A DNA stretch of 37,171 nt from Verrucomicrobiota bacterium (lineage in GTDB: Bacteria; Verrucomicrobiota; Verrucomicrobiia; Chthoniobacterales; Terrimicrobiaceae): NCBI GenBank assembly GCA_026398285.1, contig JAPLTI010000158.1, positions 1 through 37,171 on the forward strand, read 5' to 3'. Below, one piece after another: positions 24,446-33,470 of the stretch (position 1 is its first letter; each line of letters starts with the position of its first letter). A program made the position numbers and the translations under genes. The notes under the pieces were generated by a model, which was not told the DNA's origin, ran no database searches, and worked only from the letters and a program-made list of their open reading frames with translations.

Positions 24446-24892
24446 ATGGATGTCGGCCGCAAATCGCTACCCCACGAACTTCCGCTGTGGGTTGATGTTC
24501 ACGGGGCCGCGTTTTTCATCACCTGTTGCGCAAAGGATCGCGCGTTGAGTCCATTTGCCTGCCCGAAAACTGCAACCGGACTTTTGGAATCGATCCGTCA
24601 CCGGATGCAAATCCGCATTTGGTATGTCCATGCCGCCATCATCATGCCCGACCATGTCCACCTTGTTCTGGGATTTCCCCCGGAAACGAATGTGGCCAAG
24701 TGCATCCGAGATTGGAAACGATGGACGGCACGCGTCCACGGGTTCGACTGGCAGCGAGATTTTTTTGAACACCGACTTCGCCATGACGAAAGCCTTCAAG
24801 AGAAAATCCAGTATGTCCTCGAAAATCCCGTTCGGGCCGGGCTCGTAGAGGACTGGCAGGATTGGCCTTTTACTATATTGCCTGAAGAGTAG
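24446..24892 (+). CDS. REP-associated tyrosine transposase (RAYT, Y1_Tnp family)
   Basis: A 148-residue HUH single-strand nuclease of the Y1 transposase family. RAYTs cut and join single-stranded DNA at REP palindromes and are thought to spread them. The N-terminal RKSLPHELPLW block is typical. The metal-binding HUH motif is MPDHVHLVL (His70, His72), and the catalytic tyrosine is Tyr123 in IQYVLENPVRAGLV. All key residues are present, so it may be active. The length fits the short RAYT class without a long C-terminal extension. REP-type palindromes lie 75 bp upstream (copy A) and 28 bp downstream (copy B). The start at 24446 has no Shine-Dalgarno sequence. Confidence 0.92.
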   Translation: MDVGRKSLPHELPLWVDVHGAAFFITCCAKDRALSPFACPKTATGLLESIRHRMQIRIWYVHAAIIMPDHVHLVLGFPPETNVAKCIRDWKRWTARVHGFDWQRDFFEHRLRHDESLQEKIQYVLENPVRAGLVEDWQDWPFTILPEE

Positions 24893-30698: not shown

Positions 30699-31592
30699 TC
30701 ACCGCGCCTTGCTGTCGAAAGCATCCCGCAGGGCGTCGCCAAGGAAGTTCAACGCGAGGAGAGCAAGAGCCATCGAGGCCGCCGGAAAAACAAGGAGCCA
30801 CCAGAAACTGCGGACAGGATTGATCGCGCCTGCCCCATCAGCCAGGAGCGAACCCCAGCTCGCCTGCGGCGCCTGGATTCCAAGCCCCAGAAAACTCAGG
30901 AACGACTCATCGATGATGACCGCCGGAATAGTGAGGGTGAGATAAACCAGGATGATGCCGGCAAGATTCGGCAGCAGGTGACGGGTTAGGATTTTGACAT
31001 GCGACTGCCCGAGCGCGCGGGCTGCTGTGACGAATTGGCGTTCCTTGAGCGAGAGCACCTGACCGCGCACGATGCGGGCCATCGTGAGCCATTCGATGAA
31101 GCCCAGCGTGAGGATCAAAATCGCAATGCGGGACGACTCCACACGCCACTCGAGGCCCTCTCGGTTCGCCCACTCTTGAAGCCCGGCATTGAAAGCATTG
31201 ATCGCGATCAAAATGAAAATCAACCGCGGAACCGAGTAGAGGATGTCCACGAAGCGCATCATGAGCGCATCGGTGCGTCCACCGGCATAACCCGCAACCA
31301 GTCCCCAGGCGGTGCCAATGAAAAGACTCACCACCGCGCCGCACAGGCCGACCAGAAGCGAGATACGGCCACCGGTCAGAACACGGTAGAGCAAGTCGCG
31401 GCCATTCAAATCTGTGCCGAAGGGATGCTCCCACGAGGGCGGCGCGTATTGGTTCGGACCGGGTTCGCCGAGAGCGGATGGCATGAAAAATGGCCCGGCG
31501 ACACAGGCGAGAACCATGAATGCCAGAAACACCGCAGAGAGCACGGCGGCGGGATTTTTTCGGACTCGCTGAAAGACGCGCGGATCAAGCAT
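30699..31592 (-). CDS. Peptide/nickel-type ABC transporter permease, OppC/DppC-like
   Basis: A 297-residue inner-membrane permease of the OppC/DppC type. It has the N-terminal OppC helix (VRKNPAAVLSAVFLAFMVLACVAG), the HPFGTDLNGRDLLYRVLTGGRIS signature, and the EAA-like cytoplasmic loop ending in ALGQSHVKILTRHLLPNLAGII. The final segment LGLGIQAPQASWGSLLADG is highly typical. It imports oligopeptides or similar solutes with OppB, a binding protein and ATPases. The start at 31592 overlaps the upstream oppB stop by 8 bp. No OppA, OppD or OppF gene is in the neighbourhood. Confidence 0.93.
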   Translation of the reverse strand: MLDPRVFQRVRKNPAAVLSAVFLAFMVLACVAGPFFMPSALGEPGPNQYAPPSWEHPFGTDLNGRDLLYRVLTGGRISLLVGLCGAVVSLFIGTAWGLVAGYAGGRTDALMMRFVDILYSVPRLIFILIAINAFNAGLQEWANREGLEWRVESSRIAILILTLGFIEWLTMARIVRGQVLSLKERQFVTAARALGQSHVKILTRHLLPNLAGIILVYLTLTIPAVIIDESFLSFLGLGIQAPQASWGSLLADGAGAINPVRSFWWLLVFPAASMALALLALNFLGDALRDAFDSKAR

Positions 31593-32505
31593 GGGATTTG
31601 ATTCGCGGGTCAAGGAACCCGTAGGCCAGATCAACGAGGAGATTGAAAAAAACCAACATCGCGCAATAGACGATCACCATCCCGCCGAGAAGGAATCCAT
31701 CGCGATTCAGAATGGAATGCACAAAAAATCCGCCCGCGCCGGGGATATTGAAAACGGTTTCGACGACGATGGATCCTGTGAGCAGGTGCGCAGCAAGCGG
31801 CCCCAGATACGAGACCACGGGCAGGATGGCGATACGCAACGCGTGGCGATAGACGACGGTGGATTCCTTCAGGCCCTTCGCTCGTGCCGTCCGCACAAAA
31901 TCCATCTGCAGAGTCTCGACCATGCTCCCGCGCATGAGACGCGCGATCACCGCCGCCGCTGGAGCAGCCAGCGTGAGCGCGGGAAGAATCAAATGCGAAA
32001 ATCCACCCCAGCCCCCGGCCGGCAACCATCCGAGCGTGAGGGCGAACACAAGAATCAAAAGCGGGCCGATGATGTAAGACGGCAACGAAATCGCTGCCAG
32101 CGCAAGAAACATCGCTCCGAAGTCCCGCCAAGTATGGCGATACATCGCCGCCAGCGTCCCAATCCAAACACCAGCGAATGTTGCAAGCAAAAAGGCCGCC
32201 CCACCGAGCGCCAGTGTGACCGGCAATGTCTGCGCGAGGATTTCATTCACCGAGCGGTTGCGATACTTCGTGGAAAGCCGCAAATCCCCGCGCAACAAAT
32301 CGCCAATGTAGCCCGTGTATTGCTGCCACAGCGTCCCATCGAGTTTGTATTTCGCCAAAAGCTGCTTCTCAATCGCCTCCGGAATCTTCCTCTCCCCGTC
32401 AAACGGCCCGCCCGGCGACGCCCGGATCAACAGAAAAGTGATCGACACAACGCAGAACAAAACCACAAGCAGCGAAACAAGGCGTTTTGATAGGAGAGCA
32501 AGCAT
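31585..32505 (-). CDS. Peptide/nickel-type ABC transporter permease, OppB/DppB-like
   Basis: A 306-residue permease with the OppB layout: N-terminal LSKRLVSLLVVLFCVVSITFLLIRASPGGPFDG, then six membrane segments. The EAA-type loop is ARAKGLKESTVVYRHALR. The C-terminal VVETVFNIPGAGGFFVHSI and YGFLDPRI are typical. I chose ATG at 32505; a TTG at 32520 is possible. It partners OppC, with the genes overlapping by 8 bp. The solute-binding protein and ATPase subunits must be encoded elsewhere or lost, so the substrate is open. Confidence 0.93.
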   Translation of the reverse strand: MLALLSKRLVSLLVVLFCVVSITFLLIRASPGGPFDGERKIPEAIEKQLLAKYKLDGTLWQQYTGYIGDLLRGDLRLSTKYRNRSVNEILAQTLPVTLALGGAAFLLATFAGVWIGTLAAMYRHTWRDFGAMFLALAAISLPSYIIGPLLILVFALTLGWLPAGGWGGFSHLILPALTLAAPAAAVIARLMRGSMVETLQMDFVRTARAKGLKESTVVYRHALRIAILPVVSYLGPLAAHLLTGSIVVETVFNIPGAGGFFVHSILNRDGFLLGGMVIVYCAMLVFFNLLVDLAYGFLDPRIKSHA

Positions 32506-32777
32506 GGTGCGCAGGCCCAAAAAAATCCTTGAGCCAGATCCGCAAGTCCTACCGCAACGAACCGCAAAACACCACCACCCACTGCACCCGCTGCCTCACA
32601 GTCTGCAAAAGCGGCGAACCAAAAATTTGGACGATCGTCCAAATTTTTGGTTTGGCGAGAAAGGCGAGAGCGATGGTTTTGGTTCTTTGGTTTGCGTTGA
32701 AGCGGGGGAACCAGCGATGCGAACTTCGTTTGCAATCCTCTCACAGTTTGGCTGAAAACAACGAAGAGGAGGTATGA
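32506..32777. other. Intergenic region upstream of oppB with palindrome
   Basis: This 272-bp gap between the HEPN gene and oppB holds no convincing gene. Short open frames on both strands only reflect the palindrome at its centre. The flanks carry CCAAA/TTTGG-rich strings (for example GGTTTTGGTTCTTTGGTTTG at 32673-32692) that echo the palindrome arms. No clear promoter for oppBC was recognised. Confidence 0.5.
32617..32652. repeat. Perfect 36-bp palindrome
   Basis: Positions 32617-32652 form an uninterrupted inverted repeat without a loop: AACCAAAAATTTGGACGA and its exact complement, centred between 32634 and 32635. Each half also contains CCAAAAATTTGG, itself near-palindromic. It is longer and more exact than a common operator and lacks the GC stem plus T-run of a terminator. 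Confidence 0.9.
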
Positions 32778-33470
32778 TTATTTGGCTGGCCAATGGTGCC
32801 GGAGTTTTTCGATCCAAGGATCCAGCCCGTCAGCGCGTGTCTGGGAATAGCGGTCCAGTGCCTCGGCTAACTCGCGCAGTTCGGGTGCGATCCAGCCGAT
32901 TACTTCCAAAAGCGATGCGTGTTGTTCATCAAGATTTGTCCAGTGAATGATGCGCTCGTGGTGGAAGGCGCGGTTGCGGAGTTCACGCAAACGAGTCAAG
33001 CGGCGGTTCAGAGTCTGGAGGTCTCGCTGGGACTTGGGTGCGGCACAAAAGGTGAGGGTGGCGATGTGAACGATGTCCCGGCTCTGTGCATAATGCTTGT
33101 TGAAAAAGGCAGTCCAAAATCCAAAGGTCAGCTCCGCAACCATCCTCCCCGGAGATACGGGTTTGCTCAGGCGTTGAAGGTTCTCTTTGGCATTGGAAAT
33201 TTGACTTTTCTGGGTCTTGGTGAGCAATTCGTAGCAGGCACTCTTGTCATACCACTGCGCGGTGAGGAAATGGTTTTCCAGAGCCCTTTGAAGTGCGTTA
33301 CGCAGTCCCACCTCCACCATTTGCAGCGGCGAGTAAAGAGACTCGCAAAGCGCCATATTCCAAAGGTAGCGTGCAAGCGTGATGTGCGGCTCGGCTTGAT
33401 CCTGACGATAGGCCTCAAGTCTCTCTGCTGCCAGAGCTGGTTTAAGATTTTCAAAAAAGACCGTATTCAT
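32778..33470 (-). CDS. Abi-like HEPN-domain protein (putative abortive-infection RNase)
   Basis: A 230-residue, mostly helical protein similar to the Abi_2/AbiD-AbiF-like family, many members of which act in phage defence. The N-terminus (ARYLWNMALCESLYSPLQMVEVGLRNAL) matches the usual pattern of this family. The C-terminal LRELRNRAFHHERI contains the HEPN ribonuclease motif RNxxxH (Arg165, Asn166, His170). The active-site residues are therefore present. It stands alone between two palindromic repeats, without a visible antitoxin or partner, which suggests a mobile accessory gene. Actual defence activity is inference from the family. Confidence 0.82.
   Translation of the reverse strand: MNTVFFENLKPALAAERLEAYRQDQAEPHITLARYLWNMALCESLYSPLQMVEVGLRNALQRALENHFLTAQWYDKSACYELLTKTQKSQISNAKENLQRLSKPVSPGRMVAELTFGFWTAFFNKHYAQSRDIVHIATLTFCAAPKSQRDLQTLNRRLTRLRELRNRAFHHERIIHWTNLDEQHASLLEVIGWIAPELRELAEALDRYSQTRADGLDPWIEKLRHHWPAK

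Follow-up and report, generated by a model that had tools for sequence, protein, structure and literature searches.

Perfect palindromes dispersed in company with a PaaX/Cas2-like gene in Verrucomicrobiota and Patescibacteria

Introduction

Does an exact palindrome of 36 bp (AACCAAAAATTTGGACGATCGTCCAAATTTTTGGTT) located between an oppB-like permease gene and an Abi gene serve these two neighbours, or is it one copy of something larger? The question is raised by the stretch of 37,171 nucleotides analysed here, called the window throughout, in which a first-pass annotation had considered a binding site for a dimeric regulator, a recombination or resolution site and the core of a short repeat family. 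Where dispersed bacterial palindromes are served by a protein of their own, REP/REPIN repeats and their RAYT (TnpA-REP) transposases, together called REPtrons (PMC3733652, PMC3116915, PMC8049555, PMC8266576), are the established example. Each RAYT gene occurs as a single copy, is inherited vertically and is linked to its repeats (PMC8049555), perfectly palindromic REPs whose proteins co-evolve with them are already known (PMC8266576) and Y1 transposase genes situated between long inverted repeats have been designated TIRtrons (PMC3733652).

The palindrome in the window

The palindrome at 32617-32652 is loopless and perfect with arms of 18+18, as initially read, and equally its estimation as far beyond chance was borne out by an expectation of 8e-7 perfect 36-bp palindromes per window. 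It is the sole loopless palindrome with arms of at least 8 in the whole window. With two mismatches tolerated the arms grow to 23 nt (32612-32657), and this stretch, folded as + strand RNA, forms a hairpin of -29.6 kcal/mol (z -6.8). Gene and domain coordinates place the palindrome between oppB and the Abi gene as noted before, the repeat search delivered no additional copies downstream, where echoes of the CCAAA/TTTGG arms had been suspected, and an Rfam search of the window matched no family. The features of the region are the following.

31585-32520, minus strand: oppB-like permease gene (PF00528), a constant neighbour of the window copy, not of the family
32612-32657, no strand: locus-specific arm extension with 23-nt arms, 91% complementary, folding into a hairpin
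32617-32652, no strand: perfect loopless palindrome, a copy of the dispersed family, with the conserved 34-bp unit ACCAAAAATTTGGACGA/TCGTCCAAATTTTTGGT
32653-32777, no strand: variable segment bounded by the palindrome, missing in G012; 303 bp and a second palindrome are found instead in G024
32778-33470, minus strand: Abi_2-family gene (PF07751; PADLOC PD-T4-5/AbiD-like, E 3e-12), an accessory neighbour, missing here in G024 and G025

The Abi_2/AbiD-like gene (32778-33470, minus strand) can be described as a defence-like accessory gene at a variable site.

A dispersed repeat family

A genome search identified about 20 near-identical copies of the palindrome, located between genes, in the window's own genome (G000). 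Allowing at most one mismatch, 19 matches were retrieved in G000, 24 in G012 (UBA5019), 14 in G024 and one in G025, with none in the other 22 of the 26 family genomes. The repeat unit is 34 bp long, and symmetry across 34 copies falls abruptly to background beyond approximately 17-20 bp from the centre; extension of the arms was thus dismissed as a general sign of hairpin-primed copying, with L027 as an exception. Among 48 classifiable copies, 43 are intergenic (21 between convergent, 14 between tandem and 8 between divergent genes) in a count that uses a simple coding-potential model and includes each orthologous copy separately; the five copies scored inside genes are probably due to gene calls that run too far. 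A variant palindrome, CCAAAAAAATGAACGATCGTTCATTTTTTTGG, occurs in eight copies in G013, one of which precedes and one of which trails the PaaX-like gene introduced below. Core matches in Vibrio, Lysobacteraceae, Acidobacteria, Planctomycetota and Siminovitchia were discarded as unextended chance hits.

Doublets with a distance of 110-111 bp from centre to centre are present at four loci (L002, L006, L010 and L011). Since their interiors are weakly similar once oriented consistently (z 3-4 for three pairs), descent from a shared ancestor is more probable than a fixed-spacing rule, which was abandoned.

Contigs end or start inside palindromes (C12, C27 and C322 of G013, C272 of G000, C218 of G024) and runs of N begin in palindromes at L042 and L055. 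Palindromes seem to break short-read assemblies, and copy numbers in draft genomes are therefore lower bounds; the genomes compared are mostly incomplete drafts.

Comparison of the window locus across four genomes recovered the palindrome in G000, G012, G024 and G025, and the Abi gene in G000 and G012 only. The proposed regulatory tie to oppB or the Abi gene consequently fails, because about 20 copies reside elsewhere in the genome and the Abi gene is absent at the orthologous sites of G024 and G025; family copies, when checked for constant company, are independent of both neighbours. What remains of the early suggestions is the core of a short repeat family, with a site for a dimeric protein as its likely molecular nature. 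The informative partner of the palindrome is not a local neighbour but lies on a different contig and is a PaaX/Cas2-like gene.

The PaaX/Cas2-like partner

This gene (G000:C143:1791-2549), situated between gltX and thiL (names assigned by reading translations), matches PaaX_M (PF20803, Cas2-like) and PaaX_C and is accompanied by one palindrome upstream, about 35 bp ahead of its start codon, and two downstream. Among the 26 family genomes it is found only in G000, G012 (97%), G024 (95%), G013 (69%), G014 and G004, and the dispersed motif occurs only in the four that carry the gene at 69-100% identity. The proteins of G014 and G004 are more diverged, and imperfect palindromes of different sequence adjoin their genes. 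A Y1/RAYT transposase was rejected as the partner, being present in 25 of 26 family genomes regardless of palindromes. The window itself contains an open reading frame (24446-24892, plus strand) overlapping a Y1 transposase match (PF01797, 24572-24736), possibly a RAYT-like gene.

Three domains make up the protein: a winged helix at the N-terminus, a Cas2-like domain in the middle and a PaaX domain at the C-terminus. The best solved-structure match of its AlphaFold2 model (mean pLDDT 81.7) is E. coli PaaX (8a39, E 3e-10), followed by Cas2 structures for the middle domain. Order and fold of the three domains are those of the PaaX repressor (PDB 8a39; TIGR02277) and the assignment to the PaaX superfamily is supported by both domain matches and the fold; TIGR02277 scores of 50.6-64.5 bits against a cut-off of 264.55, however, set these proteins far below the PaaX equivalog. 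No paa operon neighbourhood surrounds the G000 gene between gltX and thiL, and no relatives of its product were detected in the viral contigs searched. Unlike the known repressor, the protein comes with many dispersed cognate palindromes and with a gene flanked on both sides.

Among 37 sequences W84, W88, W92, D98, R107, G120, Q123 and S125 are invariant and a C-terminal motif, DPxLP..LxPxxYxG, is largely so. Asp98, absent from E. coli PaaX and Rv0674, aligns in a weak match (E 0.6) with residue 10 of the Cas2 protein SSO1404, the catalytic Asp of that protein; the conservation of Asp98 hints at a retained nuclease function. The likeness to Cas2 of CRISPR adaptation thus concerns the fold of the central domain and this position, whereas the Cas2-like domain is here fused to a winged helix.

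Generality across two phyla

In Verrucomicrobiota, the surroundings of 37 PaaX-like genes contain 24 strong palindromes at most 250 bp from the gene (18.3 kb) and none in the 73.8 kb beyond. Strong palindromes flank both sides of the gene at eight loci and at least one side at 16; when remaining loci were checked with a softer scan, most of them had imperfect palindromes, and some loci show imperfect palindromes only, or none. G211 and G124 are single-contig genomes and the flanking pattern is therefore no artefact of draft assembly.

The palindrome sequence is wholly different between lineages (GCAAAAAATGTCTCAG, AACAAATAAGTTCACGA and GTTTCATTTAGCGTCACGA, among others, given as first halves), and within a lineage the palindromes on the two sides of the gene are usually identical and match dispersed copies in the same genome. 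Equally, G182 and G272 possess several PaaX paralogues, each with a separate palindrome family; comparison of two paralogues gave identities of 70% and 40%. In G231, 17 copies of a 38-46 bp palindrome resemble each other over little more than the palindrome itself, and in G182 doublets with shared interiors recur at two to three loci. A core, TGTCNCANNTGNGACA, in the copies of G340, G048 and G182 resembles the parS site of ParB, TGTTTCACGTGAAACA, a likeness which is probably convergent.

A prediction fixed beforehand stated that genomes with the core inside a longer palindrome should carry palindrome-flanked PaaX-like genes. All four such genomes (three Patescibacteria and one Akkermansiaceae, with different arms) have PaaX-like genes with flanking palindromes. 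In the contrast set with unextended core matches, six of seven genomes are devoid of a PaaX-like gene; the exception, Siminovitchia, carries two such genes, which have no palindromes. In Doudnabacteria, CTGGTCAAAATTGGACGATCGTCCAATTTTGACCAG adjoins a PaaX-like gene (L190) and TTGGTCAAATTTGGACGATCGTCCAAATTTGACCAA is dispersed in L026, as is a second palindrome family (L193). All four Patescibacteria proteins scanned contain PaaX_M. Three Patescibacteria genomes of about 1 Mb (G412, G413 and G414) harbour between two and five PaaX-like genes apiece, and several of these genes are flanked by perfect palindromes of their own that measure up to 52 bp.

The repeat family, the flanking of the gene on two sides and the cognate specificity across lineages and paralogues are established by these comparisons.

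Evolution at fixed sites

Most palindrome sites are common to G000, G012 and G024. Over 14 orthologous pairs, palindromes differ at 7 of 476 positions (1.5%), their adjoining flanks at 411 of 1680 (24%). At two sites (L008 and L009) G013 displays a different perfect palindrome, CCAAAAAAATCGACGATCGTCGATTTTTTTGG, at the same place, and hybrid copies fuse two half-site types at the centre in G013 (L203, L204 and L135) and in G000 (L006 and L011).

G025 does not carry the PaaX-like gene, and one of its sites is deleted, one half-deleted, two are decayed and one is intact. The palindrome is conserved as long as the PaaX-like gene is present and mostly decays or vanishes after its loss. The intact site, the orthologue of the window copy, is perfect and includes a compensatory change (CCTAAAA...TTTTAGG). 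Between gltX and thiL, G025 retains just one palindrome, in decayed form, exactly at the place of the palindrome, gene, palindrome and third palindrome of G000 and G013; since both of the latter carry the gene at this locus, the G025 remnant looks like the scar of a deletion from palindrome to palindrome.

DNA is also gained and lost at the window site, with 303 bp and a second palindrome in G024, the Abi gene in G000 and G012 and neither in G025, and L005 has an extra 153 bp and a second palindrome compared with G012 and G024. Palindrome-bounded inserts restricted to one species are 153 bp (L005, 1806-2026) and 303 bp (L016, 2204-2575) in length. For the most part, orthologous sites are either shared or decayed; none of them captured a recent insertion that has clean boundaries and a matching empty site, and no target-site duplication was seen.

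A repeat-protein pair or a regulon

These observations can best, and by a modest preponderance, be explained by a pair of repeat and protein resembling REP/RAYT, in which a PaaX/Cas2-like protein takes the place of the HuH transposase. The protein would bind the palindrome as a dimer or tetramer, with one unit on each 17-bp half-site, and binding together with rare copying, conversion or recombination at palindromes might keep four to about 25 copies per genome matched to the protein, an upkeep that would parallel the role of RAYT for REP/REPIN repeats. Judged from the indels, palindromes may act as ends for gain and loss of intervening DNA, including the PaaX-like gene.

Alike in REP/RAYT and the system described here are short intergenic palindromes arranged as singlets and doublets, a flanked gene for the cognate partner, co-evolving pairs and long vertical persistence. 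The repeat is dispersed, intergenic, palindromic and within 20-40 bp, and the cognate gene is flanked by the same repeats, as in REPtrons. Membership in this class nevertheless fails because the partner is not a Y1 HuH tyrosine transposase but PF20803 PaaX_M, with a PF01797 distribution that does not match, and because no constant GTAG or CGTC tag ends the aligned copies. Moreover, the palindromes are perfect and loopless and count tens of copies versus hundreds, and any mobility of theirs is putative. TIRtrons equally have a gene bounded by inverted repeats belonging to a dispersed family, with a protein unrelated to the PaaX-like protein.

Alternatively, the protein could be an ordinary transcription factor or nucleoid organiser, with the approximately 20 palindromes as selected operators or architectural sites and the upstream copy in autoregulation. 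We consider such a regulon possible, though doubtful. PaaX proteins are a family of repressors (8a39) and most sites are old, orthologous, shared and much better conserved than their flanks, as expected of operators, which favours the regulon over the repeat-protein pair. Site sequence changes along with the protein and mostly decays after its loss, the copy ahead of the start codon occupies the position of an autoregulatory operator, and regulatory PaaX proteins being repressors, a nuclease role is here putative. The perfect copy that G025 retains without the gene equally speaks against the repeat-protein pair, as do the want of a clean recent insertion or target-site duplication among the sites compared, the PaaX-like loci with imperfect palindromes or none and the incompleteness of most genomes. 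On the other hand, a second copy right after the stop codon, recurring from one lineage to the next, is unexpected for an operator, copies prefer convergent and tandem junctions over promoters, doublets with shared interiors have been duplicated into new places and perfect symmetry of 34-46 bp exceeds usual operators. Two-sided flanking, duplicated doublets and palindrome-bounded indels favour the repeat-protein pair over the regulon.

A stronger proposal, at present tentative, regards the PaaX/Cas2-like protein as an active nuclease or recombinase whose substrates are its cognate palindromes. The invariant Cas2-type acidic residue missing from E. coli PaaX would cut or resolve the palindrome and would drive its copying, the exchange of half-sites and the gain and loss of DNA bounded by palindromes.

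That the palindromes are repeated intrinsic or factor-dependent terminators or hairpins at mRNA ends is very improbable. The RNA hairpin is strong and about half of the sites lie between convergent genes, but at 32617-32652 the GC-rich stem-loop with T run of an intrinsic terminator was not found, the T tract and the terminator call both being absent; the palindrome has no loop and is symmetric on both strands, copies also occur between divergent genes, and the pairing with PaaX-like genes and lineage-specific cognates would stay unexplained. Equally remote are terminal repeats of a classical DDE/HuH transposon family with the PaaX-like gene as a passenger: an IS630-type gene (L006, 1949-2986) directly adjoins a palindrome doublet and Y1 transposases are widespread in the family, yet Y1_Tnp in 25 of 26 genomes is distributed unlike the palindromes, no transposase recurs beside the copies inspected and the PaaX-like gene is the one flanked across two phyla. 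Regulation of oppB or the Abi gene alone, suggested by the place of the palindrome between them, is the least credible reading and was rejected at the family level in view of the dispersed copies and the absence of the Abi gene in G024 and G025.

Outlook

In the open-access literature searched, taken without preprints and most subscription journals, no paper links PaaX-family proteins to dispersed palindromes, and PaaX is never found together with Cas2, Cas2 and palindromes, or Patescibacteria. Palindrome and PaaX-like protein, in a matching pair peculiar to each of many bacteria of two phyla, appear as an undescribed repeat system. If the repeat-protein pair is real, it would be a second solution, unrelated to REP/RAYT, that is based on a Cas2-like fold and present in two distant phyla and more than once within a single genome. 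Proteins at present annotated as PaaX-family regulators would gain a substrate open to testing, one class of repeats that break draft assemblies would be accounted for, and the co-evolved pairs of protein and DNA would form a natural series from which a recognition code could be read. Furthermore, it bears on the action of Cas2-like domains outside CRISPR; should the protein indeed be a nuclease, a class of minimal mobile or domesticated elements founded on the Cas2 fold would extend across Verrucomicrobiota and Patescibacteria.
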